Source of the DNA: Thioalkalivibrio sp. XN8
Lineage (GTDB): Bacteria; Pseudomonadota; Gammaproteobacteria; Steroidobacterales; XN24
Direction of reading: 5' to 3'
Assembly (NCBI RefSeq): GCF_011058255.1
Contig: NZ_JAALFH010000061.1
Location: forward strand, 1-59,208
DNA length: 59,208 nucleotides
Shown: piece after piece, positions 26,319 to 58,367 of the stretch
Layout: each line of letters begins with the position of its first letter
Numbering within the stretch: position 1 is the stretch's first letter
The notes under the pieces: generated by a model
The model's database searches: none
Told to the model about the DNA's origin: nothing
What the model saw: the letters and a program-made list of their open reading frames with translations, nothing else
Position numbers and translations under genes: made by a program

Positions 26319-26394
<76 letters not shown>

Positions 26395-29403: not shown

Positions 29404-31328
29404 CCAGGCTCCCCGCCCGGCGGCTCGGCTACCTTGAGGTACCGCTCCGCATGGGCCTCGCCCTCCGGCATGCGAGTTGCTCTCTGCCTGAAATACTCAC
29501 TTGTCTCGGGGTCCGTGCAGAACAGGTAGCAGCCCTTTTGACCACGGGTCATGAGGGTCCTGTAGGTGTTCTTGATGATCCTGTCCGCGATCTCGTTCGC
29601 TCGCTCAGGCTCGTCCTTAGCCATTTTTTTGAGGCCCCGAATCGACCTGTCCTGTGACGACCGCTTAGTGAAATCGGTAACAACGTGACCATCTCTGACC
29701 ACCAGGTCCGGGCCGATGATGACACCAACATAGTCCAGCTCCAGCCCTTGGCACGTATGGATACATCCGATCTCATTGATTGAATCGGGCTGGAGAATCC
29801 AGAGTCCGCCATCCTTGTCGAGGTTCCAACGCATGGCGAACCCATGCTCGGGTATCGCGACATCCCTGATCGTCGGGTCCTTCTTGCCCTTCCAGTCCCA
29901 ACAATACCCCGCCACCATGCGTGCCTTGTTGGCCACGCGGTTCTTCTCCTTGATGAGATCCTGGAGTTTGTTGGGCGAATCGCAAACCTGGAAATCAAAA
30001 TCGATGCCTTCGAGCGTCTCGTTGGCGGTCGGACGAATCTGCAGGGCGTGATCCACCCAGGCGAGATAGCCATCGGAGCCGTTACAGCGGAATTGGGAAG
30101 TAAGGTTGCCCGTGTGGACGTCGGCCCTGAGCGTCTCGGCCCAACGCGAAATCTCGTCGATGGTACCAATGTCATCGGTCGTGACGCGCTGGTCCTCATC
30201 AACGAAGAAGACGCAGACCTTGGCTGACTGTATCAACTCCTTGACCTGGTTCTCACCGAGATTCTTGTACATGCCGGATTTCTCATTCAATCGATGCGCC
30301 TCATCGACGACGAGAAAATCGATCATGTTGGGCCTGCAGTCGGTGTAAGACCCGGAGCCCTTGAATAGATTGGTGATTCGGGTCTTCTTCAGGGTGCCGG
30401 CCAGCTTGCTTTCATATACGGCCCGAGGCGCAGCGTTGCGGGTCACGTAGTGAACAACCTTCTCACGTTGAGTCAGTTCTACAAGGAGATTGATCGCAAC
30501 AACCGATTTCCCTGTGCCTGGGCCGCCTTCGACGATGAATACCTGCTTGCGTCCGTTGGCTGCTCTTTGCCAAAGCGACAGCGCATGCTCGTAGACGAGC
30601 TTCTGGTCATCGATCAGTGTGAATTCCCGGTTGCCCCGCAATAGGGAAGCGAGATGGTCGGCTAGGTTCTTGGACGGTTTCAACCGCCCATTGGCGATCC
30701 GATAGAGAACTTTGTTGCGATCACCAGTTCGAACGTGAGTCTTTATGAACTCTGCTAGCCGCTCGACATCCTGACGAATGAAAACCGGCGCCTGGTCGGT
30801 ATGTTCGGCATAGAACTCCGACTTCAGGGCGGTGCCGTCGGCACAGTTGTGAAGATACGCGCATGGCACCAACTGGATATCGTCAGCCTGAACAGCTTCG
30901 TTGTAGTCACGGATCAGCGCGGCGTAGGTCCAGGCCTGGTAAGACGGATGGGTAAGCTCGTGCCAACCTCGGCCGACCACGGCTTCAATGATTCCGTCTT
31001 TCTCGGTTGCCTTCGCATCGCTCCACTGTTTCAACTCAACTATGATCGCCGAGTCCCGACCCGCCTCGTCAGCGCCGGTTAAGATGAAATCGATGCGACG
31101 AGAAGTCAGGGGTATCTTGAACTCAACCGCGACCCCGGCGTCTGCGGCGATATCGGCGCTCATCAGCACGTTGTTCACGTACTGCATTGAATTACGCCAT
31201 GAATTGATCTCGCTTTCGGATGTCGAGATTCCCAAACGAAATCTGAACGCTTCCAGAATAACGTTCTCGATCCGGTTGCTGAGGACGTCCCTGGTGAACT
31301 GCTCTCGAGTCTCAGCGTAGACGAGCAT
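29394..31328 (-). CDS. DUF2075 superfamily-1-like helicase/ATPase with N-terminal nuclease-like domain
   Basis: 644 aa. Residues 1-200 contain SRRIDFILTG and AIIVELKQW, spaced like a PD-(D/E)xK nuclease (Asp, then Glu-x-Lys). Then Walker A EGGPGTGKSVVA (about residue 266), Walker B DFLVVDEAHRL, VFFVDEDQRV, and helicase motifs near the C-terminus (IHTCQGLELDYVGVIIG, TLMTRGQKG). This is the DUF2075 family, found in defence and mobile regions. It starts 3 bp after the MazG stop and overlaps the HNH gene, so the three are one operon. Confidence 0.88.
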   Translation of the reverse strand: MLVYAETREQFTRDVLSNRIENVILEAFRFRLGISTSESEINSWRNSMQYVNNVLMSADIAADAGVAVEFKIPLTSRRIDFILTGADEAGRDSAIIVELKQWSDAKATEKDGIIEAVVGRGWHELTHPSYQAWTYAALIRDYNEAVQADDIQLVPCAYLHNCADGTALKSEFYAEHTDQAPVFIRQDVERLAEFIKTHVRTGDRNKVLYRIANGRLKPSKNLADHLASLLRGNREFTLIDDQKLVYEHALSLWQRAANGRKQVFIVEGGPGTGKSVVAINLLVELTQREKVVHYVTRNAAPRAVYESKLAGTLKKTRITNLFKGSGSYTDCRPNMIDFLVVDEAHRLNEKSGMYKNLGENQVKELIQSAKVCVFFVDEDQRVTTDDIGTIDEISRWAETLRADVHTGNLTSQFRCNGSDGYLAWVDHALQIRPTANETLEGIDFDFQVCDSPNKLQDLIKEKNRVANKARMVAGYCWDWKGKKDPTIRDVAIPEHGFAMRWNLDKDGGLWILQPDSINEIGCIHTCQGLELDYVGVIIGPDLVVRDGHVVTDFTKRSSQDRSIRGLKKMAKDEPERANEIADRIIKNTYRTLMTRGQKGCYLFCTDPETSEYFRQRATRMPEGEAHAERYLKVAEPPGGEPGWQ

Positions 31329-31790: not shown

Positions 31791-31896
31791 GATGCCCCGT
31801 TCGCTGAGGCTACGTTTGTCCACTTCCTTCGCCTTGGGGCCCATTTCGGGCTAACGGTCTGAAATATAACCTGAGATTGGGCTCGTGGGGTGAGCC
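31791..31896 (-). repeat. 106-bp direct repeat, copy 1 (upstream of the MazG operon)
   Basis: Ungapped match to 34839-34944 with only scattered mismatches. It ends 94 bp before the MazG start. It contains GCCCATTTCGGGC and a GGCTC-N7-GAGCC hairpin. The gap 31897-32020 beyond it has no gene. Confidence 0.85.
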
Positions 31897-32020: not shown

Positions 32021-33310
32021 TTAAACCCTTTGTCCCCCCGGATTAGCCCAAGCATCCGTCGCGTTAGCGAGCTTCACCAGGCTCTCGCCAAGTTGGCTTG
32101 GATGAATCGCCAAGCGTCGCAAGAGCAGCAACACTTGTCTGCAATATTCGGCCGGGTTGAATTTCGCGGGCGATGCCGTCAGACGAGCCAGGTCCCCGGC
32201 ACGTGCGTCAAAGTAGCGAATCTCATCATCGAGGCGCTGGCTGACATACCGGACAACGTCAGTTGATCCGTTCTCTGGGGTTCGGGCGGATTCCACCTGT
32301 TCCTTCTTATCCGTCCATGCTTCCCGTTTGACCTGATAAGCCTCAAGCGCAGCTATGCCCACTTCCCTCGCGGCTGCCGCGGCTTCACGCGCCTCTCGGG
32401 TACCAATAGCGCGTAATGCACCTCGCGAGATCCTTGAACCCCCAATTCCACCTGCTACTACTCCCAGCGCACCGATCACGATGACGCCGGCAGGGCCGAA
32501 CAGATAGCTGCCCAATAGCGCGCCCGTCCATTGACCAGTGGCCCCGCCAGCAATCCGTCCCGACACATCACCGGAGATGTTGGTTATCAATTGTTCAAGA
32601 TTGCCGGACCCGTCGGCAAAGCGACGAAGCTCTGCAGCCGATGCAGCGACGAGAGCAATCCATGGAAGCTCGAAATCGCCAACCTCCACCCCTTGCTGCA
32701 GCGTAGATTCGGTCAGACCCCGAACTTCCTCCAGTGAAAGCAATGGATCAACATAAACACCTTCCATCCCCTCGACATCGGCGGCGCGTTCTGAGTTTAC
32801 GATGGTAGGAATATGGGGATTGATCGAAAGGTGTTCGTGGATCGCCTGGGGGCTCGAAACGCACTTGACCTGAAAAGGGCTTCCATCCACCAACAAGTCC
32901 CATCCCTGTTGGCTCGGGGAGGTTGGGAAGGTGACGTCATGCCCAGCGTCCATGAGATGCTGAGCTGCTATTCGCTCTGCAACATATCCATGCATCTGGC
33001 TGAGGGAGCCTTGAAACGCTTCCCCGCTAAGTTCGGCCTGGGCATCAGCAAAGGCTGCGAAACTGAATACGCCGGATAGATCCTGCGCCCTCGCAAAGTC
33101 GATGGCTTCAAGGACCATCGGATCTATGCGGGCGGCATCGTAGATTAGGTCGCCCACAGTTAGCGTGGTAAAAGTAAAATCGCTACTAGCTATCAACGCC
33201 CGGAGACGATCGCGTCGATTTGCCGACTGAATAGGGATTGAGAGCGCCTCTCTCGCATCACCTGCTGCAAGAAGTGCCTGGACTCGCGTTAGCAGTTCAC
33301 CGTTCGTCAT
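32021..33310 (-). CDS. Putative PD-(D/E)xK nuclease fused to a glycine-rich membrane segment
   Basis: 429 aa. After a helical N-terminus, YVAERIAAQHLMDAGHD, then QGWDLLVDG and FQVKCVS (about residues 128-165) resemble a restriction-type nuclease core: Glu on the first helix, Asp, then Gln-x-Lys. Then a Gly-rich hydrophobic stretch (LLGSYLFGPAGVIVIGALGV) that could cross a membrane, and a helical C-terminus. No named family recognised. It follows the coiled-coil membrane gene by 2 bp. The nuclease assignment is inference. Confidence 0.7.
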   Translation of the reverse strand: MTNGELLTRVQALLAAGDAREALSIPIQSANRRDRLRALIASSDFTFTTLTVGDLIYDAARIDPMVLEAIDFARAQDLSGVFSFAAFADAQAELSGEAFQGSLSQMHGYVAERIAAQHLMDAGHDVTFPTSPSQQGWDLLVDGSPFQVKCVSSPQAIHEHLSINPHIPTIVNSERAADVEGMEGVYVDPLLSLEEVRGLTESTLQQGVEVGDFELPWIALVAASAAELRRFADGSGNLEQLITNISGDVSGRIAGGATGQWTGALLGSYLFGPAGVIVIGALGVVAGGIGGSRISRGALRAIGTREAREAAAAAREVGIAALEAYQVKREAWTDKKEQVESARTPENGSTDVVRYVSQRLDDEIRYFDARAGDLARLTASPAKFNPAEYCRQVLLLLRRLAIHPSQLGESLVKLANATDAWANPGGQRV

Positions 33311-33312
33311 GT

Positions 33313-34743
33313 TCAGGTGATGTCCGCCAACCCGGGATACCGGTTCCGAGCAACATCCAGACGCGACTTCTTTTCCCTTAAGCTGGCGACTGCGTTTTTT
33401 AACTGGGTGTCGAGTAACCTCAACTGGCTCCGCGACCTTGATAGCTTGAGCTTGAGATCATTGCTTTCGGCCGTGAGCATATGAATCTCCTTCCTCATAG
33501 CCGAAAGGTCTGCGTCGGTAACCCTATTTGGAGTGGATCCCCCTCGTGGAGACTCTACCCCCGAGTATTTACTCCGCGGTTGCGATCCGACCGCCCTGTT
33601 TTCAGTCTGGCTATCAGTTTGGTCGCGTTGGGCCAATAGAATTTTTAGGGCGGTATTCTTGAGCTGGATGTCTTGGCTGACCCTACTGGCGGTTCGGGAT
33701 TGGGTTCGAACCTCCTGCGATAATTTGTCCCGGCGCTGTCTTAGCACCTTTCGCTCAGCCTCTGCCCGGTCAACCTTCTCCTGACAATCACGCACAGTCC
33801 GAATGGCGTTCTTCCATACATTCAGGCAGGTTTCGCCAGATTCGCCTGTTGCTTGCGGCGTGTCTTTCTGGGCACAGATTGCGATCTGTGTGACAACCAA
33901 AGGGATTAGCTTCTGTTGCAGCTTGCGTGTACCAGATCCGGTTAAGTAGAAGACGAATCCACCACCAAGGATCAGTAGAAACACGGGGTTTACCAGGACG
34001 GCTATAGTTGAGCTCAAGCCCGTGTACGCGGCGAACGGAAGGGTGATGCCAAGTATTCCTGCAGCCCCTGCCAGCATCGATACCGCAGCCGTGTAGAAAG
34101 CGAACCCGCCAACCTGGACTGCAGCCACCAGCGCGGCGCTGAGCGAGCCCGTCACCAAAGCCTTTCTGAGCACAGACCTGGTAATGCGGTCCGCACCCAT
34201 CGCCTCTTTGAGTGCCTGCTGTTGGTCCAATGGAAGGGCATCGATGAAGCTCTGGACCTTGTCCAGAAGAGCTTCCTGTTCGGAGTCAGTTAGCGATTCC
34301 GGGTCGCTATCTAATCCGCCGAAAATGCGGTGCAGTTGGTCGCGCGTCAGTTCCCCAAGCGTTGAACCAGCGAAAGTCTTGTACTGCTTTCTATGGATCT
34401 CGATTGCTCGACCGACGATATCTGCGGCATGGCCCTCGAAATCGCGCTCGGCCTGGTAGTCTTTCCCGCTGATATCACAGACCTGAGCCATTCGCCCCAA
34501 GAGGCTAAGGATCAGATCAGGTCGAGGTTTGGTTTCCAGTTGCGCGATGGCAGCCTGGAGAGAACGGTCTAATTGCCTGGCTCCGGCTGCTCCCCTTAGT
34601 CGGGACGTCACGAGCGGCCAAAGCTTGGTTTCATTCAACAGCGCAAGGCAGCCTGCAAGTTCGGTCGGCGAGAGTGCAAGCATGGAACGCCATAGATCGC
34701 GGCCGTCCGACTTGCTCTCTGCCATCATGGGTGGAGCACCCAT
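33313..34743 (-). CDS. Membrane protein with C-terminal coiled coil
   Basis: 476 aa. The helical N-terminal 190 residues (LLGRMAQVCDISGKDY and following) are weakly reminiscent of YaaW-type proteins. Then two or three membrane helices (residues about 195-275, ending PVFLLILGGGFVFYLTG), then a long charged coiled coil with a Gln/Ser-rich break to the C-terminus. ATG at 34741-34743. First gene of a two-gene operon with the nuclease-like protein. It may act as a membrane sensor or tether; function unknown. Confidence 0.72.
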   Translation of the reverse strand: MGAPPMMAESKSDGRDLWRSMLALSPTELAGCLALLNETKLWPLVTSRLRGAAGARQLDRSLQAAIAQLETKPRPDLILSLLGRMAQVCDISGKDYQAERDFEGHAADIVGRAIEIHRKQYKTFAGSTLGELTRDQLHRIFGGLDSDPESLTDSEQEALLDKVQSFIDALPLDQQQALKEAMGADRITRSVLRKALVTGSLSAALVAAVQVGGFAFYTAAVSMLAGAAGILGITLPFAAYTGLSSTIAVLVNPVFLLILGGGFVFYLTGSGTRKLQQKLIPLVVTQIAICAQKDTPQATGESGETCLNVWKNAIRTVRDCQEKVDRAEAERKVLRQRRDKLSQEVRTQSRTASRVSQDIQLKNTALKILLAQRDQTDSQTENRAVGSQPRSKYSGVESPRGGSTPNRVTDADLSAMRKEIHMLTAESNDLKLKLSRSRSQLRLLDTQLKNAVASLREKKSRLDVARNRYPGLADIT

Positions 34744-34838: not shown

Positions 34839-34944
34839 GATGTCCCGTTCGCTGAGGCTACGTTTGTCCATTTCCGTCGCCTTGGGGCCCATTTCGGGCT
34901 AACCCGCCGAAATATAACCCGAGATTGGGCTCGTGGGGTGAGCC
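34839..34944 (-). repeat. 106-bp direct repeat, copy 2 (upstream of the nuclease/coiled-coil operon)
   Basis: Same orientation as copy 1, offset 3048 bp with no gaps. It ends 95 bp before the start at 34743. The remaining gap to 35025 contains no other recognisable feature. Confidence 0.85.
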
Positions 34945-37603: not shown

Positions 37604-37975
37604 TCAGTTGCCTCTAACTTCCCCATCTCCCCTGGTTCCCTCCGAGTGCTCTTGCTGCCCGAATCTGATCGCCGACCAGAACACGGCAAGCGTTATGGCG
37701 TTCAGGATCACCCACAGCAACTTGCTATACAGGTAAATCGGGAAGATTGGGTTATACAGGACGGCTATACCTGCGAGCAGCCAAGTGAGCGGCCCGCCTG
37801 CGGCCCCTTGAGAGTGCAACTTCCAGATCAGCCATATTGCGACAAGACATGTCACGAGCCGGGTAATCGTGTAGTACCCGTACGGCAGGTCAGCGAGCCC
37901 TACGACATAAAACACAAGAACCACCCAGAAGGGGTCCGTCGGGAATTCCGTAGCCTTGGAACGCATCTGCATCAT
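37604..37975 (-). CDS. Small membrane protein, DUF6804-like
   Basis: 123 aa from ATG 37973-37975, which overlaps the previous stop (ATGA). Three hydrophobic helices: PFWVVLVFYVVGLADLPYGYY, then TRLVTCLVAIWLIWK, and LTWLLAGIAVLYNPIFPIYLYSKLLWVILNAITL in pieces. The LYNPIFPI turn is a DUF6804 hallmark. Last gene of the GrpE/Hsp70 operon. Function unknown. Confidence 0.72.
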   Translation of the reverse strand: MMQMRSKATEFPTDPFWVVLVFYVVGLADLPYGYYTITRLVTCLVAIWLIWKLHSQGAAGGPLTWLLAGIAVLYNPIFPIYLYSKLLWVILNAITLAVFWSAIRFGQQEHSEGTRGDGEVRGN

Positions 37976-38373
37976 CGGCACATCCGCGCCGCCTCCAGGG
38001 ATGTGGCTCGGGCAATACATCGCCGGACAGAGTCGAGGCGATTCCGGGTGGCTTCAAGCTCGGTCAGGAGGTTGTTGTACTTGGCAGCCAACTCATCGTG
38101 GTCGTATGCGACTGATCTGCACGTCCGTGCCAGGTCGTCATACTCGCTCACTACGTCGTCGAGCTTCGACTTACACACAAAGCCCCCGAAGCCACACGTA
38201 TAGGCGTCAAAGCAGACGGCATCGTCCGACACACATTTTGCAAACGAGTTGCATACCTTGTCTCCGTAATCGAGGCATGCCGCGCGCTTGCCAATCGGGC
38301 ACGAGAAAGTACTTTCGAACGCCTCTGAGGGCATAAGCCAGAGAATCAAGAAGACAGCGACGATTTGGCGCAC
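37972..38373 (-). CDS. Secreted cysteine-rich protein with coiled coil
   Basis: 133 aa from GTG 38371-38373, chosen because GGGGGAG lies just upstream and it gives a signal peptide (IVAVFLILWLMPSEAFE). The mature part has about ten cysteines in the first half (CPIGKRAACLDYGDKVC, CGFGGFVC) and a helical, coiled-coil-like second half. Likely disulphide-bonded in the periplasm. Eighth gene of the operon. Confidence 0.68.
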   Translation of the reverse strand: MRQIVAVFLILWLMPSEAFESTFSCPIGKRAACLDYGDKVCNSFAKCVSDDAVCFDAYTCGFGGFVCKSKLDDVVSEYDDLARTCRSVAYDHDELAAKYNNLLTELEATRNRLDSVRRCIARATSLEAARMCR

Positions 38374-38491
38374 TGGGATCTCCCCCTGAGCAAAACGGCT
38401 GGCTATAGGCTCGAACAGACCCATCGAGGCGTGGCTTGCACGGGCCCTCACCGCGCCGACGAATCCTCCAGTAATTCTGGGCGACGATGCC

Positions 38492-38755
38492 TCAACGAAT
38501 CATCGCCAGGATACCGATTGCCGCACCCATACCCGCGACGCCCGAAATAACTACTGCGCCGAATGTTCCCAACTTGGGCTGTAGCGCGTAGTAACAGCCG
38601 AGCGCGACCAGACCACCGACAACGCCGAAGAGCCTGACGATGATTACTACCAATAGGGTCGGCCAGATCCAGGCCCAAGAGCTGGTAGTGCTCTCTTCGC
38701 CTGGAGCCTGCGTTTGCGCTTCCACGGGTGGCGCATTGGAGTCCTGATAGGCCAT
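38492..38755 (-). CDS. Small two-helix membrane protein
   Basis: 87 aa. Pro/Gln-rich N-terminus, then two membrane segments (WAWIWPTLLVVIIVRLFGVV and FGAVVISGVAGMGAAIGILAM). ATG at 38753-38755. Lies 17 bp after the preceding gene in the operon. No family recognised. Confidence 0.68.
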   Translation of the reverse strand: MAYQDSNAPPVEAQTQAPGEESTTSSWAWIWPTLLVVIIVRLFGVVGGLVALGCYYALQPKLGTFGAVVISGVAGMGAAIGILAMIR

Positions 38756-38772
38756 GTTTATCTCCAGGATAA

Positions 38773-39441
38773 CTATCTGATCATGAAACTCTTTTTTACC
38801 CGGTCGTGGGCATCCCTCGCTGCCTGGTCGCCATCCACATACGAAAGCGTAATCAGGGCCTTCTCCGAGCCCAAGAGAACGTGATACTGACTCACCCGCA
38901 CTACTTCCAAGGGATCGACTGTCGATGTACGCGCGTATCGGATGACCAGGGCGAGTTGCCCTCCAAGCATCTCAGCGGTAACGCTTGATTGACCCACTTC
39001 CGAGATTCCTTGCTTCTCCATACCGGTCCACATCGTTGGCGCCATCTCCCGCCAGGCTTCCGCCAGACCGTTGAGAACTCCGCGTCGATCCGCCTCCAAC
39101 TCGCGCTGAAGCTCCGCCTGCGACACGGGCGGATCGACCGGGGTGATGGAAACTCGAACGATTACCCTGGAGGGCGCCGGATAGGACTGAACAGAAAGCG
39201 CCGCCATATGTGTGGCCGCGATTCCCGTTTGCTGCTCTGCGAGCTCCTTTACTCGCAGGCGCTGCTCGGCGTCACTGATTGACCAGGTGCCAGGGACTTC
39301 GAGCTGAACCCGGTTCTTCACGTTGAGCGTGGTGTAGCCCGCCGGTTGAGCGTTCGTGGCCTGATTCCAGGCCACCAGTGAACAAACCAGCGCTGCGCCA
39401 AAAGCCACTCCATACCTGAAACTCATCTCACGACCCCACAT
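38773..39441 (-). CDS. Exported protein, PsbP/DcrB-like fold suspected
   Basis: Up to 222 aa. The start at 39441 shares the A of TGATG with the upstream stop; ATG 39426 is an alternative. Signal peptide (VAFGAALVCSLVAWNQATNAQ), then VQLEVPGTWSISDA and SYPAPSRVIVRVSI, a pattern seen in PsbP/DcrB-type exported proteins. Sixth gene of the operon. Function unknown. Confidence 0.7.
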   Translation of the reverse strand: MWGREMSFRYGVAFGAALVCSLVAWNQATNAQPAGYTTLNVKNRVQLEVPGTWSISDAEQRLRVKELAEQQTGIAATHMAALSVQSYPAPSRVIVRVSITPVDPPVSQAELQRELEADRRGVLNGLAEAWREMAPTMWTGMEKQGISEVGQSSVTAEMLGGQLALVIRYARTSTVDPLEVVRVSQYHVLLGSEKALITLSYVDGDQAARDAHDRVKKSFMIR

Positions 39442-40862
39442 CAGTTCTGGGTGAGCAAGCTCGTCAGTAGTTCTTGCAGCACTGGCTGCAAGTTCTCTCG
39501 GCTTCGCGTCGAACCGGTACCCTCGTAGACATTGATCGCGATGGGCAGGGAGTTCAGCAGAGTCATGCCACTGAGGCCCGTGATCGTGCGGGTTGTGTCT
39601 TCGACAGACATATTCATTCGCATTGAGAAGTAGAACGCGTTTCCATCGCGACCAATCGGGTTGACTTCTGGCTGGGAAAGTTCGACCCGATACGTGTCAA
39701 ACGCGGCTTGGAGCCTTTTATTCAGTTCCTGAGGGCTTATGCGCGGGTTCGCCGAGGAGATACCGGCAAGAAATGCTTCACGGCCTACCTCGAACCGCTG
39801 AAAGTCGCCGCCTGGCCCCAGGAGTTGAATCTGAAGCCAGTGATCCAATGTGTCTCTCCGGCCGTTCTTGTATTCATCGAGCTCGGTACACTGCACAGCG
39901 GCATGCAACAGACGAACGTCCTTACCGAGTGACCGCTTGGTCAGGCTTAGCAGTTCCTCTTCACGCGGAGTCCCACCAAGGGTGCAATAGCCGTTTGGAT
40001 TGGAGAACACGAGGCGTTGCCCAAGCGCCTGGATCGTCTCCTTTGAAGCCCCAGACCTTGCCCGCTGATTGATGGCTTGCTCCAGCTGTCGCAACAAGTC
40101 CGGGGTCTCTCGACCGTCAACGCTGATGCCGTAGCTGCGCTGAAACGCTTCGATTGCTGACCTGGTCCGCTGGCCGTAGATTCCATCTGCGACACCAGGG
40201 TTGTATCCAAGCTCGGACAATGCATTCTGGATGGCGAGTGTGAGCTGCGATCTTTGGGCAGCGGGCTGTGCGGTCAACCCAGGGCTCGGCGAGAGCTCCC
40301 GCAAAGCTTCGGCCACAATCGCTGAACGAAGGGGCTCTACATCCCTTTTCGCGGCTGACAACGCACCACGCCGGTACTGGAAGCTCCCGCAACGCCTGTT
40401 GTAGTCCTCGACGGATAAATTGAACTTCGTTTGGATCGCGAGAGAGTTGACCTCGGGCCTGATGGCCTCGAGCCGGATATCCTCGCGCAGGCACCAACGA
40501 ATTTCGGCCACCGAGAGAATGCGATTGGAACCGGCCGGGGGCTTTGTGAAACTCGGAGTGGTTGGCTGCGCGGGCGCAGATTCTGGCGCATTCTGAGCCG
40601 ACGCAGGTGGCTGCCAGGTTGGCGGTTTCCGAGAGGCCTCGTCTACGACGCTCAGAATCCAAATTATTGTGACGGCGGCGATTGCGTACCAAACCCAGGC
40701 TTTGGACCCGCCGGTTTTCCTTTGTTGGCTACTACGCCAGGTGTTCTCAGATGAACTGCTCCGAGGGCGTGTCTCGGATGCAGTGTTTCTCCGATCTTCC
40801 TGCGTGGGAACACCGGCGTCTTTAAAGCCAGCGAAATCTACAGCTTCCCGTTCGTCTGACAT
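39441..40862 (-). CDS. Membrane-anchored protein with peptidoglycan-binding domain
   Basis: 473 aa. Ser/Arg-rich cytosolic N-terminus, one membrane helix (KAWVWYAIAAVTIIWILSVV, about residues 54-73), a Pro-rich linker, and a PG_binding_1 domain (IQNALSELGYNPGVADGIYG, about 210-260). The C-terminal 170 residues are unrecognised. The protein could link the inner membrane to the wall. It begins 3 bp after the M48 protease stop in the operon. Confidence 0.78.
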   Translation of the reverse strand: MSDEREAVDFAGFKDAGVPTQEDRRNTASETRPRSSSSENTWRSSQQRKTGGSKAWVWYAIAAVTIIWILSVVDEASRKPPTWQPPASAQNAPESAPAQPTTPSFTKPPAGSNRILSVAEIRWCLREDIRLEAIRPEVNSLAIQTKFNLSVEDYNRRCGSFQYRRGALSAAKRDVEPLRSAIVAEALRELSPSPGLTAQPAAQRSQLTLAIQNALSELGYNPGVADGIYGQRTRSAIEAFQRSYGISVDGRETPDLLRQLEQAINQRARSGASKETIQALGQRLVFSNPNGYCTLGGTPREEELLSLTKRSLGKDVRLLHAAVQCTELDEYKNGRRDTLDHWLQIQLLGPGGDFQRFEVGREAFLAGISSANPRISPQELNKRLQAAFDTYRVELSQPEVNPIGRDGNAFYFSMRMNMSVEDTTRTITGLSGMTLLNSLPIAINVYEGTGSTRSRENLQPVLQELLTSLLTQN

Positions 40863-40865
40863 AGC

Positions 40866-42008
40866 TCAGTGTCTTTGTGCGGCCAGACCCAGGCGGTCTT
40901 CGACAATCGTCAACACGCGGCCGAACTGACTCTCCTCGATGCCCAGAGTAGAGAGGTCATTGCGAAGACGCTGCCAGAATTCCCGTCGCCCGGTCTCGGG
41001 GTGGAAGCGGACCTCGCGGATAGCATCCTCAAACTGGATGCCGACCTTGCCAGGTCCGTTCTCGCGCACATAGGACAATGCGCTTTGTACCGCCGGACGC
41101 CCATAAAGACGTTCGATGCCGGCCTGCTCCTCCTTGCTGAACACGCCATCGGAGACTGCGGCGAACAGAACTGCCCACATAGCCGCTCGAGAAAAGCTTT
41201 CCGCCCGGACCCGGGCGAGCATCTGACCAGTCGCTTCTTCCAGCAGGCTTTCCACCCGCTTATCGACTCTCTCTAAAGCAAGGCCGTGAGTCCCCGTGCC
41301 ATTGAGGCGCCGGGCCGCCTCCGACATCTCGAACCACAAGAGCGCCTTCATGCGAACCGTCAGTATCGGGTGGGATGCAACGATGCCCGAAGCATGCCCG
41401 CCGATACTCTTCAGCCCCCTCAACTGGTCCAGGAAACTCGCCAGGTCGAAGCGCAAATACTCTTCGCTCAGCCCGGTACCCGTCTTCAAGATGGTCCGAT
41501 ATGCGACATCTATCGATCCACAGGCGAGTAGTCCGATCCGGTCCGCGCTTATTTCTCCAGCTCTTTGCAGTGCCAACCAATTGAGCCGCGTACCATCGCC
41601 TGTTGCATCGGTTGGCCTGGGATACAAATTGTGCTCGAAGAACATATGGCCGATCTCGTGGCCAATCACGAATGTGAGCTCTTCATCTGACATGAGTTGA
41701 ATAAGCCCGCTGGAAAGCATCAGAGCGGACTTGTCTTCGCCCCCTATGTGGACGCAAGCAGCCTGCGGGGAGGGGTCGCTGTAAACGTAGCCAGGAATCG
41801 CGCTTTGTAATCCAAGCCGGCTCGACGCGGCCCCTATTGAGGCATGCAAGGCAGGCATAAGCTCCGGGCCTATACTGATGGCATCGGCTAACAGCCGAGA
41901 CCGGGCACTTACATGGGCGTCTTTGGCGTGCTCGCGGTCCAGGTCGATCCCGAAGGTCTTTGGATCGTCCCCGGCGTAACGGCATCCCAGTAAATCGGCG
42001 ATCAACAT
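40866..42008 (-). CDS. M48-type zinc metallopeptidase with TerB-like tail
   Basis: 380 aa. HEIGH zinc motif in VIGHEIGHMFFEH (about residue 119), then a further Glu in GEISADRIG as third ligand, as in M48 peptidases. No clear membrane helix, unlike HtpX. The C-terminal part (AAMWAVLFAAVSDGVFSKEE and following) resembles a TerB-type helical bundle, echoing the next gene upstream. Fourth gene of the Hsp70 operon; it probably degrades clients of the chaperone, which is inference. Confidence 0.82.
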   Translation of the reverse strand: MLIADLLGCRYAGDDPKTFGIDLDREHAKDAHVSARSRLLADAISIGPELMPALHASIGAASSRLGLQSAIPGYVYSDPSPQAACVHIGGEDKSALMLSSGLIQLMSDEELTFVIGHEIGHMFFEHNLYPRPTDATGDGTRLNWLALQRAGEISADRIGLLACGSIDVAYRTILKTGTGLSEEYLRFDLASFLDQLRGLKSIGGHASGIVASHPILTVRMKALLWFEMSEAARRLNGTGTHGLALERVDKRVESLLEEATGQMLARVRAESFSRAAMWAVLFAAVSDGVFSKEEQAGIERLYGRPAVQSALSYVRENGPGKVGIQFEDAIREVRFHPETGRREFWQRLRNDLSTLGIEESQFGRVLTIVEDRLGLAAQRH

Positions 42009-42030
42009 GTGCGAACCTGAACGGACCTAT

Positions 42031-43245
42031 TCATGCAACGTGCTTCCGGCGGGCCGCTGCAATCCGGCTCAGCATCTCCTGCGCCTGCTCCCGCTTGCTC
42101 GGATCCGAGTGGCTGGCGAGGGAGTTCCACTTTCGATACTCCCGATTCAGATGCTTGCGAACCTCCTCCGGTGACATGGCGCCACTGATTCCCAGCAGGC
42201 CGTCATCATCGGCATCACCGACATGCATGGACACCGGGAGTATCTTCTCCTCCATGCCGCGAAGCCTGTCCAGGCTAACCCGCATCCACTCGCCAAGCTG
42301 GCGAATGGTATTTAGTTCAGCCTCTTCCGCTCGGCCATCCGCCGCTGCAACATGCAAGCACAGCTCCAACGCATCGTAGCGGCCTGCCGGATCTGATATC
42401 TCGGTGAGCTCACTGCACATCGCACGCATATCGAGTTCGCCGGCCGTCGCCTTCTGGTATGCCGCCGTTACAAGACCATTGAGCCGCCGCTTTTCCCTGG
42501 ACTTCTCCTCGTCATCCTCGATCGCTTCGACGCGCTTTCCTAACCAGGCGCGTATCACGGCTCCCTCGGCGCGATCCATACTTCCATCCGCCGCACTCAC
42601 GGCCATGGCAAGATCGAGGGTCAGTTCCTCGATCCGAGTGCGGCGTTCTCGCATTTCTTCATAGCCGATCTCAGCCCACTCCACTGAAGTCCGCACGGTT
42701 GCAGATGCGAGCACCACACCGCTCACTCTCTGTCCGAAGAAGTACTTGGCTTCGGGGTTCGCAGAAACGACGTCGACATGGAACTCGAGTCGCCGGGTGC
42801 CGGATCTCGGCAGCGAAACCATATCAATTGGGACGAACGCTCTCCTGGACCAGTCCGAGATGATCGCGTGCTGGTACGGTAGCGGGGCCGCTTCTGTTCG
42901 ATACTCGAGAAGGGGAGTATCCGCCTCCTGCATCCAGTCGAGGGCACAGAAGATGGGCTTCGCCTCTCCGTCGGTAATGTCCATGGCGTGGACGACAAAC
43001 TGAATCTCGAATCCAGCATACGGGGCAGTAATGGGGCCCCTTACCTCGATCTCGAATATGGGTGCCGTGTTGCCTTTGAGCTCTATGGTGGTCTGAGAGA
43101 CTCTGGCCTCGAATCTTCGTGCCGGTGGTTCTTCTCCTTTAACGGTGGCAACAGCCGACTTCGCGGCCGCGCCAATCGCTCTCAGAGCCCCTCCTAGCAA
43201 CCAAAAGGCGAACCATATGCCGGCTAACGTCAGAATGACTTCCAT
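42031..43245 (-). CDS. TerB-domain membrane protein with possible J-like C-terminus
   Basis: 404 aa. N-terminal membrane helix (TLAGIWFAFWLLGGALRAIG), a beta-rich middle (residues about 45-185), a TerB-type domain in two halves (LAMAVSAADGSMDRAE; CLHVAAADGRAEEAELNTI), and a C-terminal helix pair LNREYRKWNSLASHSDPSKRE that resembles helices II-III of a J-domain but has HSD instead of HPD. It lies directly after the Hsp70 gene, where a co-chaperone would be expected. Function inferred. Confidence 0.8.
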   Translation of the reverse strand: MEVILTLAGIWFAFWLLGGALRAIGAAAKSAVATVKGEEPPARRFEARVSQTTIELKGNTAPIFEIEVRGPITAPYAGFEIQFVVHAMDITDGEAKPIFCALDWMQEADTPLLEYRTEAAPLPYQHAIISDWSRRAFVPIDMVSLPRSGTRRLEFHVDVVSANPEAKYFFGQRVSGVVLASATVRTSVEWAEIGYEEMRERRTRIEELTLDLAMAVSAADGSMDRAEGAVIRAWLGKRVEAIEDDEEKSREKRRLNGLVTAAYQKATAGELDMRAMCSELTEISDPAGRYDALELCLHVAAADGRAEEAELNTIRQLGEWMRVSLDRLRGMEEKILPVSMHVGDADDDGLLGISGAMSPEEVRKHLNREYRKWNSLASHSDPSKREQAQEMLSRIAAARRKHVA

Positions 43246-43254
43246 TTCAAACCC

Positions 43255-44805
43255 TCACTCGATCTGGAATTCTTCGAGTGCAGCGCGGCTTTTTCTTTTT
43301 GTTTCAGCCTCCAGGGCGCCTTCGAGGGAAGAGAGCTCCACTGCCATCAGGTCGCCCGATTCGACGTCCCGGAAGCTGCATTCCATGCGCTGGTTCTTGT
43401 CGTACGAGTAGGTAACCTGGATCGGGCGCCCGGCAGGCCTGTTCGGCGGCAGCGGCATGTTTTCCTGATAGATGATGTTTACGTTATCAGGGTCCTTTGA
43501 CTCTCCCTGGGTGATCTGCACTTCGATCACATCCTGGCCATCTGCCATCGTGTAGTAGGTCTTGGTCTCACTGCACGGGAGTGATGAGCCCTTTGGAATC
43601 AGGATGTCGTTTGCAAGAATGCGGCGCCCGGTCTCCTCATCGGTAGATACGGTGATGGTGCCGTAGCTGTGGTTGGCAACCTCGACCAGCTGAACGTCGC
43701 TAAGCCCGCTTCGGACACCCGCCGGCACGAGGGCTGCGTTTTCTTTCAGCGCATTGAGGCCCGAGTAGAGCGCAGCCCCGCATGCGACCGCCTCGTCGAG
43801 ATTTACCTCCGTGACTGGGGCGAAACCGAAGATTGCCTCCAGCCGTCTCTGAACAAACGGAATCCTGGAGCTTCCGCCAACGAGGAGAACTTTGGAAATC
43901 TCGCCCGGGTCCAGCCTGGCTTCGTCAAGGACTGCTTCTACAAGCATCTCAGCCTTCGCCACGAGCGGCGATATCCCTTCCTCAAGCTCTTCTCTGCTCA
44001 CGGATACTTGCGCCCGTCCCGAATCGTTCTGGATGAGGACACGCTGATTTGGCCGGGTTGTGAGGGCCCGCTTTCTCTCCTCTGCCTGGTTCAGGAACTT
44101 CTGCAGCTCGATATCACTCGGGAAAGCAGGCGCGCCGGTTTCGAGCCGAGCCTTCTTGTTCACTATTTCTGCAAGAACCCGGTCGAAATCCGTGCCGCCG
44201 AGGTGGCGGTCGCCTTCAGAGGCGATGATGTCGATGTCTCGTCCCGCTACCCTCATCACGGTTACGTCGAACGTGCCGCCACCCAGATCGAAGACAACAA
44301 TCTTGCCGTTGACCTCATGGTTGGTGGCGTAGAAGAGGGCTGCCGCCGTAGGCTCGTTGATAATTGCTGACACGTTCAGACCAGCCAGTTCCCCGGCATC
44401 CATCGTTGCGCGCCGGTGGGATTCAGCGAAGTAAGCTGGGACAGTGATCACGGCATCCCGCACCTTCCCCAACTGGCTTTCAGCATCCAGGCTCAGTTTG
44501 CGGAGGATCAGCGATGACAATTCCTCCGGGCGATAGGTTCTGCCCCGGTATCGCCACTGCTTACTGCTTTCCCCCATGTCTCGCTTGACGTCGGTTACAA
44601 CATTCTGAGGCTCGAGATCGCGGAGGTGTTTTGCTTCTCGTCCGACCAATACGAGTTCAGGCGGGTCATTCTCTGCAAACGCAATGACCGAGGGAGTAAG
44701 CCTCTCGCCTTCACTATTTGGGACAATGCTCGCTTTACCTAACGAATCGAGAGCGGCTATCGCCGAATACGTCGTGCCAAGATCTATTCCAACGATTGGT
44801 TTCAC
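43255..44805 (-). CDS. Hsp70 family chaperone lacking the lid
   Basis: 516 aa, about 120 shorter than DnaK. ATPase domain intact: GIDLGTTYSAIA, VVFDLGGGTFDVTVM, LLVGGSSRIPFVQRRL. The beta substrate-binding domain is visible (SYGTITVSTDEETGRR), but the alpha-helical lid is absent. GTG start overlaps the GrpE-like stop (GTGA). Linkage to its own GrpE, a TerB protein and a protease suggests a dedicated Hsp70 system separate from housekeeping DnaK. Confidence 0.92.
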   Translation of the reverse strand: MKPIVGIDLGTTYSAIAALDSLGKASIVPNSEGERLTPSVIAFAENDPPELVLVGREAKHLRDLEPQNVVTDVKRDMGESSKQWRYRGRTYRPEELSSLILRKLSLDAESQLGKVRDAVITVPAYFAESHRRATMDAGELAGLNVSAIINEPTAAALFYATNHEVNGKIVVFDLGGGTFDVTVMRVAGRDIDIIASEGDRHLGGTDFDRVLAEIVNKKARLETGAPAFPSDIELQKFLNQAEERKRALTTRPNQRVLIQNDSGRAQVSVSREELEEGISPLVAKAEMLVEAVLDEARLDPGEISKVLLVGGSSRIPFVQRRLEAIFGFAPVTEVNLDEAVACGAALYSGLNALKENAALVPAGVRSGLSDVQLVEVANHSYGTITVSTDEETGRRILANDILIPKGSSLPCSETKTYYTMADGQDVIEVQITQGESKDPDNVNIIYQENMPLPPNRPAGRPIQVTYSYDKNQRMECSFRDVESGDLMAVELSSLEGALEAETKRKSRAALEEFQIE

Positions 44806-45599
44806 TGGACCACCTCATCCTGTCGCGCCTGGTACTGGAAGACCCCCACCTCTGCCGGCCTGATGAGCGGCGGCGGTTCAGCTCCCGTTTCACAGATGAA
44901 CCCCGGTCGGATCAGGCTCGCGATTCGGTCATTCTGTTCTTGGTCATGAGTCGATACCGGGATGGCTGTAGCGGTCTTTCGGTACTCGGAATACTTGCCT
45001 CCCAGGGGCGGCTCGAAGGAAACCACCCCCTCATTGCTCAGAAGAATCTCCAGATGATCTTTGATGAGATCGAGCGCCTCGGTACTCGAGTCGTTACCCG
45101 ATGCTTCGGCAAGCTCCATTTGCTCTCGGATCTCATCCAACGCCCTCAGGATTCCGAGGATCAGGGACTTGTTGATTGTCCAGTGGTATCCGTCCTGGAA
45201 CCGCCGCAGCTGGCGATCAGCATTGGAGGCTTGATCCCGGAGAGCCCCCAGGATCGCATCAATCTCGGCGAAGCGGCTGGCCTGCTCACCTAACAGGCGG
45301 ACCAGATTGTCCTGGACTCTCGCGGTTGTCTCAGAGCGTTTCAGGGAGTCGTCGAGAAGTTTCTCGAAACCTTCCTGGTTGACCTTGAGCAACGAATTGA
45401 TCGCCTCCCGGTGGCGAGCCTCGGAGGTCTTCCGGAGCTTCTCTACTTCACCCCTTAGTTTCTGCAGCTCCTGGTTGAGCGAGTCGGGTGAATCAATCAC
45501 CTTTGCATTGCGGTGAACCTTTGCGACGACCTTGAGCAGGTAAGCAATCGTTCCGAGCAGCAGCAGGGGAATTGCATATGTAGAAATGACCTCGCTCAT
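44802..45599 (-). CDS. Membrane-anchored GrpE-like nucleotide exchange factor
   Basis: 265 aa from ATG 45597-45599 with GGAGG 5 bp upstream. One N-terminal membrane helix (YAIPLLLLGTIAYLLKVVA), a long helical/coiled-coil middle (residues about 40-165), and a C-terminal beta part reading LIRPGFICETG then PPLIRPAEVGVFQ, matching the GrpE head that contacts Hsp70. Membrane anchoring is not usual for GrpE. First gene of a nine-gene operon. Confidence 0.8.
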   Translation of the reverse strand: MSEVISTYAIPLLLLGTIAYLLKVVAKVHRNAKVIDSPDSLNQELQKLRGEVEKLRKTSEARHREAINSLLKVNQEGFEKLLDDSLKRSETTARVQDNLVRLLGEQASRFAEIDAILGALRDQASNADRQLRRFQDGYHWTINKSLILGILRALDEIREQMELAEASGNDSSTEALDLIKDHLEILLSNEGVVSFEPPLGGKYSEYRKTATAIPVSTHDQEQNDRIASLIRPGFICETGAEPPPLIRPAEVGVFQYQARQDEVVQ

Positions 45600-45685
45600 C
45601 CTTGCCTCCAAAGATCCTTGAAGCGTTATCGGCAGATGCCTAGCCGGTGCAACGAGGACACCACGTTTGGTTGTCCAATTTTGTG

Positions 45686-45714
45686 ATATGGCTCAAAAAT
45701 CCCACATGTGGCAA
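45686..45714 (-). promoter_or_regulatory. Candidate promoter of the Hsp70 operon
   Basis: On the minus strand TTGCCA (45709-45714) and CCATAT (45686-45691) with a 17-bp spacer; leader about 80 nt. A perfect CCACATGTGG palindrome overlaps the -35. The CCATAT box faintly resembles a sigma-32 -10, but the match is too weak to claim heat-shock control. Confidence 0.3.
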
Positions 45715-47134: not shown

Positions 47135-48358
47135 TCAGTCCTTGCGGAACATGAGAATGGTATACAGGCAGTCCGGAGCAGCACATTCATACATGTTCAC
47201 GCCCACCCAGTACTGTTGCCGATAGCCAACATCGAACTGCACGAAGGCTTCTGGATTGACTTCTGCATCAACGCCAACGAGCTCCTCCGCACTGTCCATG
47301 ACAATCAGGTCCAAGTCGATGCAGTCATCATCACAAACACCGACAGCCATGTAGTGTCCGGGCCCGAGGGATACATACCCGCCTTCCATCTCGTCTGGCT
47401 CGAGCGCCCCCGCTGACCCAAATTGATCCAAGTAAGTCCACCCTTCGTCTGCCGCAACGGCGGTGATCACGAGAGCCCTTACGGCCACCTGTTGACCATA
47501 CTCGTCAAGATCCTGGAGGCTTGCCAGCGTCTCGCGCGGCAGAACGTCCATGAGTTCTCTGGATTCGTCTGCACGGCTTTCAATCAATTTCTGTTCGTCC
47601 GTCTTGAGTTCGCTCGCCACCGTCTCAAACGGAGTCGGGGATGGCGCGAGCTGCAACATACCTCTCGCATGTCTCGCTGGTATTGCCATATTGAGGTTCT
47701 GGCCATCCTCATAGAACGCTGTCGCGACACCGATCACTTCGCCACGTTCGTTCATGACTGGCCCGCCCGACGAGCCTTCGGAGATCGGGGCGGTGATCTG
47801 AAGATAGGTCACACCATCCTCGACGCGCTTCGCGCTAACCAGGCCATCGCTGAACGTGCCCCTCAGGCCCAAGGGATTCCCGATGGCGTAGACGGCGTCG
47901 CCAACTTGAACACCCCTTTCATCGGCAATGGTGAGTGCAGTCACCTCTGCCACTGGGATCTGGAGGAGGATAAGGTCTCTTCGGGTATCCTTGGATAGCA
48001 CATAGACGGCATCGAAAACCTCACCGTCTGAGAGCTCCACAGAAAGGCTCTCCGCACCGGCAACGACGTGGAAATTAGTTACCAGGACGCCGTCGTTTTG
48101 GATGAAGAATCCAGTGCCTGACTGGATTATCTCGCCATCGCGATATGCGCTCAGCGTAACCACGGCATCGCGGGCCCGGGCTGCCAGTTCAGCGGGAGTA
48201 AGTCGAGTTGGGGCCGGTGCCGCAGCACCCTGTTCCAGGTGCAGGGGAGGCGAGACTTCGACCGAGCGGCGCTCGTGTGGTCTCGTTGTCGTGCAGCCCA
48301 CCGCGATCATAAGAGACGCGAAGAGAACCGCGCCGTAGGGCCTGATTGCTGGGCTCAT
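47135..48358 (-). CDS. DegP-like trypsin-family serine protease lipoprotein
   Basis: 407 aa S1C-type protease. Lipobox LMIAVGCTT; catalytic His in VTNFHVVAGAE, Asp in DTRRDLILLQI, Ser in EGSSGGPVMN. No PDZ domain; instead a C-terminal beta-rich domain of about 150 residues with four Cys (CDDDCIDLDLIV, MYECAAPDC). ATG 48356-48358. Envelope quality control or activation of a partner is likely. Upstream of the Hsp70 operon in the same island but in a separate transcript. Confidence 0.88.
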   Translation of the reverse strand: MSPAIRPYGAVLFASLMIAVGCTTTRPHERRSVEVSPPLHLEQGAAAPAPTRLTPAELAARARDAVVTLSAYRDGEIIQSGTGFFIQNDGVLVTNFHVVAGAESLSVELSDGEVFDAVYVLSKDTRRDLILLQIPVAEVTALTIADERGVQVGDAVYAIGNPLGLRGTFSDGLVSAKRVEDGVTYLQITAPISEGSSGGPVMNERGEVIGVATAFYEDGQNLNMAIPARHARGMLQLAPSPTPFETVASELKTDEQKLIESRADESRELMDVLPRETLASLQDLDEYGQQVAVRALVITAVAADEGWTYLDQFGSAGALEPDEMEGGYVSLGPGHYMAVGVCDDDCIDLDLIVMDSAEELVGVDAEVNPEAFVQFDVGYRQQYWVGVNMYECAAPDCLYTILMFRKD

Positions 48359-51388: not shown

Positions 51389-51433
51389 CTCATAATCCCT
51401 TGGTTCCAGGTTCGAGTCCTGGCGGGCCCACCA
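51389..51433 (+). repeat. 45-bp tRNA 3'-end repeat, copy 2 (island 1/2 junction)
   Basis: Perfect copy of 26350-26394. Only the anticodon-to-CCA part is present, so it is not a functional tRNA gene. Right boundary of island 1 and left boundary of island 2. Confidence 0.9.
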
Positions 51434-52555: not shown

Positions 52556-53746
52556 ATGTCGAGCAGCCGTCCACCCGACTCGTTCGAACAACGTTACGAC
52601 GCTTGCGTCGAGGCGTTCTATGGCGCATCAGTCGGCAAGGTCAGCTGGTCCATCGCTTGTCAGAACCTGGCCGACCTGGTGGGCGTCTGGACCATCCAGA
52701 TCACCGGGATCGGCAAGCGCGCCATGGCCACCCGCTTCTCCTGGGACGGCGGATCCGTTCCCGCCCAGGTCTGGCTGGATTACTTCACCCGCTATCACGC
52801 GATCAATCCCCGCATCCCGCCCAGCGTGGGACTCGAGGTCGGGGGATGGCAGCATGACCATGAGCTGTTCCCGGCCGAGATCTACGAGGAGTCGCCGTTC
52901 TTCCGGGAGTTCCTGATTCCCTACGGCGCCAAGTACTGCTCGGCCACCAAGCTCATCGACGACGACGACATGGTCGTGATCCTCGCCGCGCATCTCAAGC
53001 GCGACCGGCCGCCGCTCACGGAAGCCCAGGTCGGCTTGCTGGATCGTGTCCGCTGCCACCTGGTCCAGGCCATCGAGGCGTATCGCTCGCTGCAACGCGG
53101 CTTGAGTGATTCGCTCATCGCCAGGACCATGCTCGACGCGCTGCCGCAACCAGTAATGCTGGTCGACGAAACCTTGTATCTGCATCATTTCAACCGCGCG
53201 GCCGCGGACATGCTGGGAGCCTCAGGCGCCGTGTTCGAACGCGGCGGCATGCTGCGCTTCAAGGAAAGGCAGGACTCGGACCGCACCGTGCTGGCCATCC
53301 GGGAGCTGGGCCTGACCGGCGCCGTGGCCCTGGATGAACGCCAGCATCAAGTTGTCTTTCGTCTCGGCGAGCAGGCGGGTCATGCCGAGCTCCTGGTGAT
53401 CGCAATCGGCGTTCACCCGGAGGAGACGATGGCGATGTTCGGCGGCGCTCCGCGAGCCATCCTCCTGTTCCACCGACTCGACGGCGAGGTCCGCCTGGAT
53501 CCGCTCATCATCGGCCACGCCTTCGGCCTGACTCCGGCCGAAGCGCAGGTCGCCGCCACCCTGGTCGCCGGGCAGACCATCGCCGAGGTTGCCAAGTCGC
53601 GATGCGTCAGCCTGGAGACCGTGCGCTCGCAGGTGCGCAGCATTTGCGCCAAGGTCGGCGTGTCCCGGCAGGCCGACCTGGCGCGCGTGCTCACCCAGCT
53701 GCCCCAGGTGAACCTGGAGCTCAGTCCGCGGACGTTCCTGAGGTAG
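52556..53746 (+). CDS. LuxR-type regulator with PAS-like sensor
   Basis: 396 aa. N-terminal sensor of about 170 residues (RFSWDGGSVPAQVWLDYF; YCSATKLIDDDDMVVIL), a PAS-like middle (PQPVMLVDETLYLHHFNRAAADML), and a C-terminal LuxR helix-turn-helix (FGLTPAEAQVAATLVAGQTI then VSLETVRSQVRSICAKVGVSRQADL). No phospho-receiver domain, so it is not a classical response regulator. It likely controls the neighbouring PEP-CTERM genes. Paralogue of the gene at 57003. Confidence 0.88.
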   Translation: MSSSRPPDSFEQRYDACVEAFYGASVGKVSWSIACQNLADLVGVWTIQITGIGKRAMATRFSWDGGSVPAQVWLDYFTRYHAINPRIPPSVGLEVGGWQHDHELFPAEIYEESPFFREFLIPYGAKYCSATKLIDDDDMVVILAAHLKRDRPPLTEAQVGLLDRVRCHLVQAIEAYRSLQRGLSDSLIARTMLDALPQPVMLVDETLYLHHFNRAAADMLGASGAVFERGGMLRFKERQDSDRTVLAIRELGLTGAVALDERQHQVVFRLGEQAGHAELLVIAIGVHPEETMAMFGGAPRAILLFHRLDGEVRLDPLIIGHAFGLTPAEAQVAATLVAGQTIAEVAKSRCVSLETVRSQVRSICAKVGVSRQADLARVLTQLPQVNLELSPRTFLR

Positions 53747-58322: not shown

Positions 58323-58367
58323 CTCATAATCCCTTGGTTCCAGGTTCGAGTCCTGGCGGGCCCACCA
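58323..58367 (+). repeat. 45-bp tRNA 3'-end repeat, copy 3
   Basis: Perfect third copy of the tRNA anticodon-to-CCA segment. Right boundary of island 2. Confidence 0.9.

Follow-up and report, generated by a model that had tools for sequence, protein, structure and literature searches.

The window analysed here is a 59,208-nucleotide (nt) contig of Thioalkalivibrio sp. XN8 (NZ_JAALFH010000061.1, positions 1 to 59,208), and it carries a minus-strand operon whose first four genes encode a membrane-anchored GrpE-like protein, an Hsp70 without its lid, a transmembrane (TM) protein that combines a TerB domain with a degenerate J region (TerB/J) and an M48-type metallopeptidase. From these parts and from the order of their genes, both of which are observed directly, we infer a dedicated, membrane-tied Hsp70 cycle in which the proteins would bind one another, pass clients along and hand them over to the M48 protease (probability about 0.55). 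The core genes recur together in distant bacteria, which suggests an undescribed, membrane-linked branch of Hsp70 systems.

Neighbourhood searches with the TerB/J protein or its profile as the sole query yielded 11 strong loci: the window, one locus in the gammaproteobacterium AqS3 (MEIF01000030, titled Gammaproteobacteria; a match in genome G497 and AqS3 are counted once) and nine loci in Planctomycetota. Joint conservation of the genes had been chosen beforehand as the test that could refute the proposed association, and the outcome was favourable for the core. The Hsp70 gene adjoins TerB/J in 11/11 loci, and a GrpE-like gene, recognised by its position and C-terminal tail, lies directly upstream of Hsp70 in all 11, firmly in eight including the window and with weaker support in three. 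The M48 gene directly follows TerB/J in four (the window, AqS3, L054 and L060); in L020 and L055 the contigs stop 837 and 345 bases past TerB/J, respectively, leaving the status of M48 unreadable there. Identity between the window and AqS3 is 26% for GrpE, 46% for Hsp70, 34% for TerB/J and 31% for M48. That the neighbourhood is kept over such deep divergence and in two phyla, and was retrieved with TerB/J alone, supports the proposed cycle. The loci are not all independent: L057–L059 have similar flanks by eye, and L055–L059 have a common upstream protein.

This upstream protein of about 620–640 residues, with several TM helices, lies just upstream of GrpE in L055–L059 and may belong to the module there. 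It has a weak TPR-like tail, which falls below the cut-off in L057. In AqS3, a second gene that lies upstream of the GrpE-like gene (L016:3688-4455) resembles by eye the exported N-terminal half of the GrpE-like protein.

Outside these loci, matches to TerB/J were few. The protein matched 1 of 59 genomes among relatives (its own), 2 of 369 in the class (its own and G497 at 4e-44), 3 of 114 among the relatives of G497 (two of them weakly) and 7 of 398 in a draw of the window's phylum, where all but its own stood at E 1.9e-5 or weaker; four of these six weak loci encode a DjlA-type C-terminus bearing the His-Pro-Asp (HPD) motif. An 11-row TerB/J profile matched 30 of 398 genomes of this phylum, only its own strongly and the next at 9e-6. 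A scan of genome contigs returned two loci, AqS3 and the Planctomycetota contig QNBT01000184 (L020). From the Planctomycetota draw, 28/392 genomes matched, nine of them strongly (E 3e-39 or better, with the genome of L020 among the nine); the 19 weak matches (E 1e-9 or worse) were excluded from the counts, and the one that was inspected (G906, L061) held none of the nine window proteins. By these counts, the set is rare in the window's phylum, uncommon in Planctomycetota and sporadic in Gammaproteobacteria. Plasmid searches with TerB/J (P0003) and the GrpE-like protein (P0001) found nothing, a less stringent one with a portion of P0003 returned a single DnaJ-type match, from Rhizobium, at E 2, and the Hsp70 (P0002) retrieved distant plasmid Hsp70s with a best identity of 40%. 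Four viral scans found nothing. No description of this gene set was found in the open literature searched, a coverage that mostly leaves aside subscription papers.

The Hsp70 was described in the first-pass annotation as lacking its lid, and the alignment agrees. Only 18 residues follow the position of DnaK residue 507, compared with 131 in E. coli DnaK, so the α-helical lid is missing, as it is in 11/11 of the locus Hsp70s. The nucleotide-binding domain (NBD), with its catalytic residues, and the β substrate-binding domain (SBD) of DnaK are present in the window protein. ATPase residues D8, T11, K70, E171, D194 and T199 are kept in all 11 wherever they can be read (the N-terminus of L060 is unreadable). 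The window Hsp70 scored 340 bits against the NCBIfam DnaK family (cut-off 822.55) and 298.3 bits against the HscA family (cut-off 708.55), reaching neither. In a tree of 18 Hsp70 sequences, midpoint-rooted for drawing only, the 11 locus Hsp70s form one clade (100/99) apart from DnaK, HscA and HscC. A Rhodococcus plasmid Hsp70 is the neighbour of this clade, and DnaK, HscA, HscC and a Nostoc Hsp70 stand further off. The AqS3 branch is long and its placement unsure.

The GrpE-like protein of the window matches the Pfam GrpE family (PF01025) at 41.5 bits against a cut-off of 25.8. Its likely start is the ATG at 45599, with GGAGG ahead of it by eye, and a single TM helix is predicted at residues 4–22 counted from this start. 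The description as a membrane-anchored GrpE-like factor fits the window protein on this prediction, but the anchor is not universal: hydropathy predicts two TM helices, separated by 89–144 residues, in 8/11 loci and a single one in the window, whereas L054 and L060 lack any. BLAST from P0001 supports a GrpE-like gene in seven of the ten other loci. At E 0.1, Pfam GrpE matched five of the eight proteins searched, with the window, L020 and L055 over the cut-off and L057 and L060 just under it, and gave no match in AqS3, L053 or L054. A structural model of the window protein is poor (predicted local distance difference test, pLDDT, 47) and contains long helices and C-terminal strands.

The E. coli co-chaperone DjlA is membrane-anchored, and Pfam matches both TerB and DnaJ in it. 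The TerB/J protein of the window similarly has a TM helix at residues 3–21 by hydropathy and a Pfam TerB match (1.6e-9); the N-terminal TM helix is predicted in 10/11 loci, L056 being the exception. A profile of the 11 proteins from TerB to the C-terminus matched seven DjlA-type proteins at 97.4% (E 1.4e-11, score 81.4), these seven being E. coli DjlA, one protein from the window's own genome and five earlier drawn in by searches with the TerB/J family. When all columns were shuffled the score reached at most 22.0 in 100 trials, and when the J columns alone were shuffled it reached at most 70.9 in 100; the J region thus adds to the match, as the real score exceeds every one of the J-column shuffles. 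In this alignment the HPD-like triplet falls on the HPD of DjlA, and helix II is longer by four residues. The J region alone matched canonical J domains at 35%, with a score of 22.5, where the highest of 100 column shuffles reached 18.4; this is suggestive only, and the comparison that includes TerB is the firmer one. Pfam DnaJ (PF00226) gave no match in any of the seven TerB/J members run, the window included.

An AlphaFold model of TerB/J, built from a three-row alignment (mean pLDDT 67), comprises the TM helix, a β domain at about residues 46–190, the TerB helices and a C-terminal helix pair. Foldseek returned one match under 1e-3 (7p2p_B, 9.3e-4). The best VIA-align match was 2h5n, a protein of unknown function (Z 10.3, root-mean-square deviation (rmsd) 3.6 over 127 residues, model residues 80–337), although a helical-bundle Z under about 13 may reflect just a common arrangement. 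The β domain gave middling matches with Z at most 7.7, and the P58IPK rows of the structure search had an rmsd of about 12. The fold search, which rests on a predicted model, neither proves nor excludes a J domain. The earlier description as a membrane TerB protein with a J-like C-terminus and a possible J partner agrees with the predicted TM helix, the Pfam TerB match and the DjlA profile match, although HPD has decayed to HSD in the window and Pfam DnaJ does not match. On the profile comparison, the identity as a J partner nevertheless appears better than merely possible.

The M48 protein of the window exceeds its Pfam cut-off (51.4 against 20.3 bits) and contains HExxH with a downstream Glu. 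The motifs HE(I/L)(G/A)H, EISADR and (S/T)HP are kept in all four M48 proteins, in line with the annotated M48-type protease. Hydropathy predicts no TM helix in the copies of the window, AqS3, L054 and L060. A TerB-like tail, once ascribed to this protein, is not supported (hhalign 0.7% and pairwise E 0.04 with four sequences, and no Pfam TerB match). The separate Hsp70 clade, the loss of the lid in every member, the kept ATPase residues, the DjlA match, the predicted TM helix of TerB/J in 10/11 loci, the intact metal site of all four M48 proteins and the separate grpE–dnaK–dnaJ set of the host argue for the proposed cycle.

In this cycle, the TerB/J protein would keep Hsp70 on the cytoplasmic side of the inner membrane, where it would load it with membrane-proximal clients. 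Because it has no lid, Hsp70 would grip these clients loosely and briefly, and the membrane GrpE would reset the cycle locally. Released clients would refold or, having failed, would pass to M48 in those versions of the system that have it. In most relatives, the GrpE segment between the two TM helices could make nucleotide exchange sensitive to conditions outside the membrane, a role that the peptidoglycan-binding and exported proteins encoded downstream may fill in the window.

Several results weigh against this reading. M48 was not found in 5/11 loci (L053 and L056–L059). Only its position and its C-terminal tail identify the GrpE-like protein in AqS3 and L054; its counterpart in L060 falls just under the Pfam cut-off, and Pfam misses the one in L053. 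The J triplet is HPD in only 4/11 loci (L053, L055, L057 and L059); elsewhere it is HSD (the window), HPN, HDD, HRD, NPD or NKD, or is absent (AqS3). Residue R167 of DnaK is contacted by D35 of the HPD motif, and the DnaJ mutation D35N suppresses DnaK R167A (PMC13012618); the equivalent of R167 is lost in 10/11 locus Hsp70s and is Ala in the window. Canonical J stimulation of Hsp70 thus appears doubtful, as judged from these residues, although two outgroup Hsp70s, one from Nostoc and a Pseudomonas HscC, lack this residue too. Finally, a search upstream of the operon gave no sigma-70-like site, and the pattern of a heat-shock-type (sigma-32-type) site was not found in the window.

Joint loss of HPD and R167 was also considered as a clean covariation and was rejected. 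The four HPD loci have G or A at R167, L060 combines R with NKD, and the Nostoc Hsp70 and Pseudomonas HscC also lack the arginine.

Other explanations overlap with one another, and their odds need not sum to 1. One alternative shifts the control of the cycle to its exchange factor: the transmembrane GrpE-like protein would couple the outer side of the inner membrane to the Hsp70 cycle, GrpE rather than the decayed J region would be the main control point, and the lidless Hsp70 would hand clients to M48 or gate it. In the island version, the outside sensor would have moved to the peptidoglycan-binding and exported proteins. This arrangement is rather unlikely; if true, it would represent a new type of sensory device built on a chaperone. 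Similarly, the J-like protein and the transmembrane GrpE might report the state of the envelope, with M48 cleaving a regulator. By analogy, DjlA reportedly acts with DnaK and GrpE on the Rcs pathway, and the DjlA likeness of TerB/J, the two predicted TM helices of GrpE in 8/11 loci and the peptidoglycan-binding partner in the window operon would all suit such signalling. An Rcs paper names DjlA 214 times and DnaK 17 times (PMC11709261). However, Pfam recognised no regulator or phosphorelay gene among the window operon genes (most genes flanking the other loci stayed outside this search), and a single TM helix is predicted in the window GrpE. Envelope-stress signalling is rated distinctly unlikely.

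A conflict or defence system is somewhat improbable as well. Here Hsp70, GrpE and J would act as an ATP-driven threshold sensor for proteins that are foreign or misfolded, with M48 as an effector that kills or stalls the cell. PADLOC also gave HNH and AbiO/Nhi-like matches within the tRNA-bounded island and a SoFic-like one just outside, and Hsp70–GrpE sets occur on Rhodococcus and Nostoc plasmids. Furthermore, in the GAP1-N2 GTPase conflict neighbourhoods described in PMC7159879, HSP70 and GrpE occur together with DnaJ- or TPR-bearing proteins. The island set resembles these neighbourhoods in that combination, but Pfam matched neither a GTPase nor GAP1 in the 29 window proteins searched (the nine operon proteins and 20 neighbours, not every ORF); conversely, TerB and M48 are missing as terms from the main text of the same survey (PMC7159879). 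PADLOC gave no match to the nine operon proteins at E 0.001, the best being CapP for the M48 protein at 0.0019. In Planctomycetota, five loci have a common upstream gene and one set lies on a 4.25-Mb contig, a setting that looks chromosomal.

The remaining rival accepts Hsp70, GrpE and TerB/J as a real chaperone module and takes M48 and the downstream genes to be unrelated passengers. This agrees with the presence of M48 in only 4/11 loci and with the lack of any match to the five downstream proteins (P0005–P0009) in the other ten, but all four carriers have M48 directly after TerB/J. On the Hsp70 tree, the carriers L054 and L060 pair with each other, the window and AqS3 are the other two carriers, and the remaining seven loci, all from Planctomycetota, form one group (100/100). 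This pattern would fit an old M48 gene lost once in the seven-member group, provided that the midpoint root is right and that M48 is truly lacking from L020 and L055, whose contigs end early. The passenger explanation is considered unlikely.

Compared with known systems, the set shares with bacterial DnaK–DnaJ–GrpE the Hsp70 ATPase residues, a GrpE family factor, a J-type partner and gene clustering, but it differs in the missing lid, the separate Hsp70 clade, the membrane-anchored J and GrpE proteins, the decayed HPD, the lost R167 and the attached M48. TerB/J is like E. coli DjlA in its succession of TM helix, TerB and C-terminal J region. Unlike DjlA, it has an extra β-rich domain of about 150 residues between the TM helix and TerB and a longer helix II, and it is encoded beside its own Hsp70; the window protein has HSD in place of HPD. 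The Rhodococcus pseudokoreensis plasmid set of Hsp70, TPR, GrpE and FtsK is alike in its lidless Hsp70 (40% identity) and in having GrpE in the operon; TPR and FtsK/SpoIIIE genes take the place of TerB/J and M48 there, and its Hsp70 falls outside the 11-member clade. The transmissible locus of stress tolerance has ClpG, sHsp, FtsH and YfdX as its marker genes, none of which was seen by Pfam among the same 29 window proteins, and the statement that the operon does not match this transmissible heat-resistance locus is upheld. The two are alike in being mobile and in carrying proteostasis genes (PMC8290217).

In a recent review (PMC8215388), prokaryotic Hsp70s are sorted into three types, DnaK, HscA and HscC, and HscC is expected not to interact with GrpE, with membrane proteins proposed as clients of the HscC system. 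HscC with DjlB/DjlC resembles the island set as a special Hsp70 that works with J proteins other than DnaJ; it differs in keeping 82 residues after DnaK position 507 and in belonging to a different clade. The present set would thus be a further one beyond DnaK, HscA and HscC, with its own lidless Hsp70, a membrane-anchored exchange factor, a DjlA-like anchor and sometimes its own protease. It bears on what drives an Hsp70 once HPD and its R167 contact have gone, and on whether chaperones pass membrane-proximal clients straight to a dedicated protease.

Hsp70–GrpE sets on plasmids were observed in Rhodococcus, with TPR and FtsK/SpoIIIE genes, and in Nostoc, with DnaJ and TPR genes (L012 and L013). 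Mobile Hsp70–GrpE modules seem to be a wider theme.

The operon as a whole spans 37604–45611 and consists of nine minus-strand open reading frames (ORFs) with intergenic spacings of -4, 9, 22, 3, -1, 17, 40 and -49 nt, which confirms the overlaps and short gaps noted at first (Table 1). Six of the nine proteins exceed a Pfam cut-off (GrpE 1.4e-10, HSP70 2.1e-100, TerB 1.6e-9, Peptidase_M48 1.5e-13, PG_binding_1 6e-15 and DUF6804 2.4e-15), and the remaining three match no Pfam family above cut-off. Judged by recurrence, the conserved unit comprises the four leading genes (45599 to 40866) and not all nine. The view of nine genes as one machine is not supported, as only these four recur at other loci; a BLAST search at 1e-3 of the ten other loci and L061, some of these loci being short, retrieved none of P0005–P0009. 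Among these accessory proteins, the peptidoglycan-binding membrane protein is supported by its Pfam match and TM helix. The two exported proteins (P0006 and P0008) keep a probable status, their export being assigned by eye, and the hydropathy scan found no segment over threshold in either.

Table 1. Operon genes and island boundaries, in window coordinates.
Feature	Position	Strand	Evidence
Left island boundary, 45-nt 3′ end of tRNA-Met	26350..26394	+	repeat
DUF6804 membrane protein (accessory)	37604..38020	-	DUF6804 56.9 bits; TM 100-118
Cys-rich, probably exported protein (accessory; P0008), true start likely downstream	37972..38451	-	sequence by eye; no Pfam above cut-off
Small protein, two TM helices (accessory)	38492..38755	-	predicted TM 34-52, 68-86
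Probable exported protein (accessory, window only; P0006)	38773..39441	-	signal-like N-terminus by eye; no Pfam match
Peptidoglycan-binding TM protein (accessory, window only)	39441..40862	-	PG_binding_1 6e-15; TM 55-73
M48-type metallopeptidase (core gene 4)	40866..42008	-	Pfam M48, conserved metal-site motifs
TM + β domain + TerB + degenerate J domain, DjlA-like (core gene 3, P0003)	42031..43245	-	Pfam TerB, DjlA profile match
Lidless Hsp70, NBD + β SBD only (core gene 2, P0002)	43255..44805	-	Pfam HSP70, ATPase residues, own clade
GrpE-like nucleotide exchange factor, one N-terminal TM helix (core gene 1, P0001)	44802..45599	-	Pfam GrpE, conserved C-terminal tail
Right island boundary, identical 45-nt tRNA-Met 3′ end	51389..51433	+	repeat

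The operon was also annotated as island-borne, and for the window this is borne out. A tRNA-Met gene lies at 26319-26394, and its last 45 nt are identically repeated at 51389-51433 and at 58323; the GC content is 0.53–0.59 between 26 and 51 kb compared with 0.67–0.76 in the first 24 kb. The repeated tRNA-Met 3′ end and the drop in GC together trace the typical outline of an island, about 25 kb long and integrated at a tRNA gene, within which the operon would lie. No integrase was recognised among the island-internal proteins put to Pfam; an rve-type integrase core is found at 58547, outside the 26.4–51.4 kb island. The host genome has its own grpE, dnaK and dnaJ together on contig C33, plus two further J proteins, and the island set is therefore an addition.

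Further features were observed around the operon. The three copies of the tRNA-Met 3′ end (26350, 51389 and 58323) suggest two tandem islands, at 26.4–51.4 kb and 51.4–58.3 kb. A 67-nt repeat (87%) flanks the Hsp70 operon at 37430 and 46545, with one more copy in the genome, on contig C17. Upstream of the operon and on its strand, 47135-48358 encodes a trypsin-like protease with a lipoprotein-like start by eye and a PADLOC match to RT-Protease_XI. At 28456-31328, an HNH endonuclease gene overlaps the gene for a Schlafen-group-3 helicase, which PADLOC matches as AbiO/Nhi-like, and the two genes may form a defence unit; the SoFic-like gene, also a PADLOC match, lies just beyond the island edge. 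A 106-nt direct repeat (92%; 31791-31896 and 34839-34944) brackets two genes at 32021-34743, which have weak PADLOC matches to JukA, LmuB and PDC-M72B and may form a mobile cassette. Lastly, a repeat of about 1 kb (67%) occurs at 52732-53720 and 57059-58047, and a gene that matches PAS and LuxR-type families overlaps the copy at 52732-53720.

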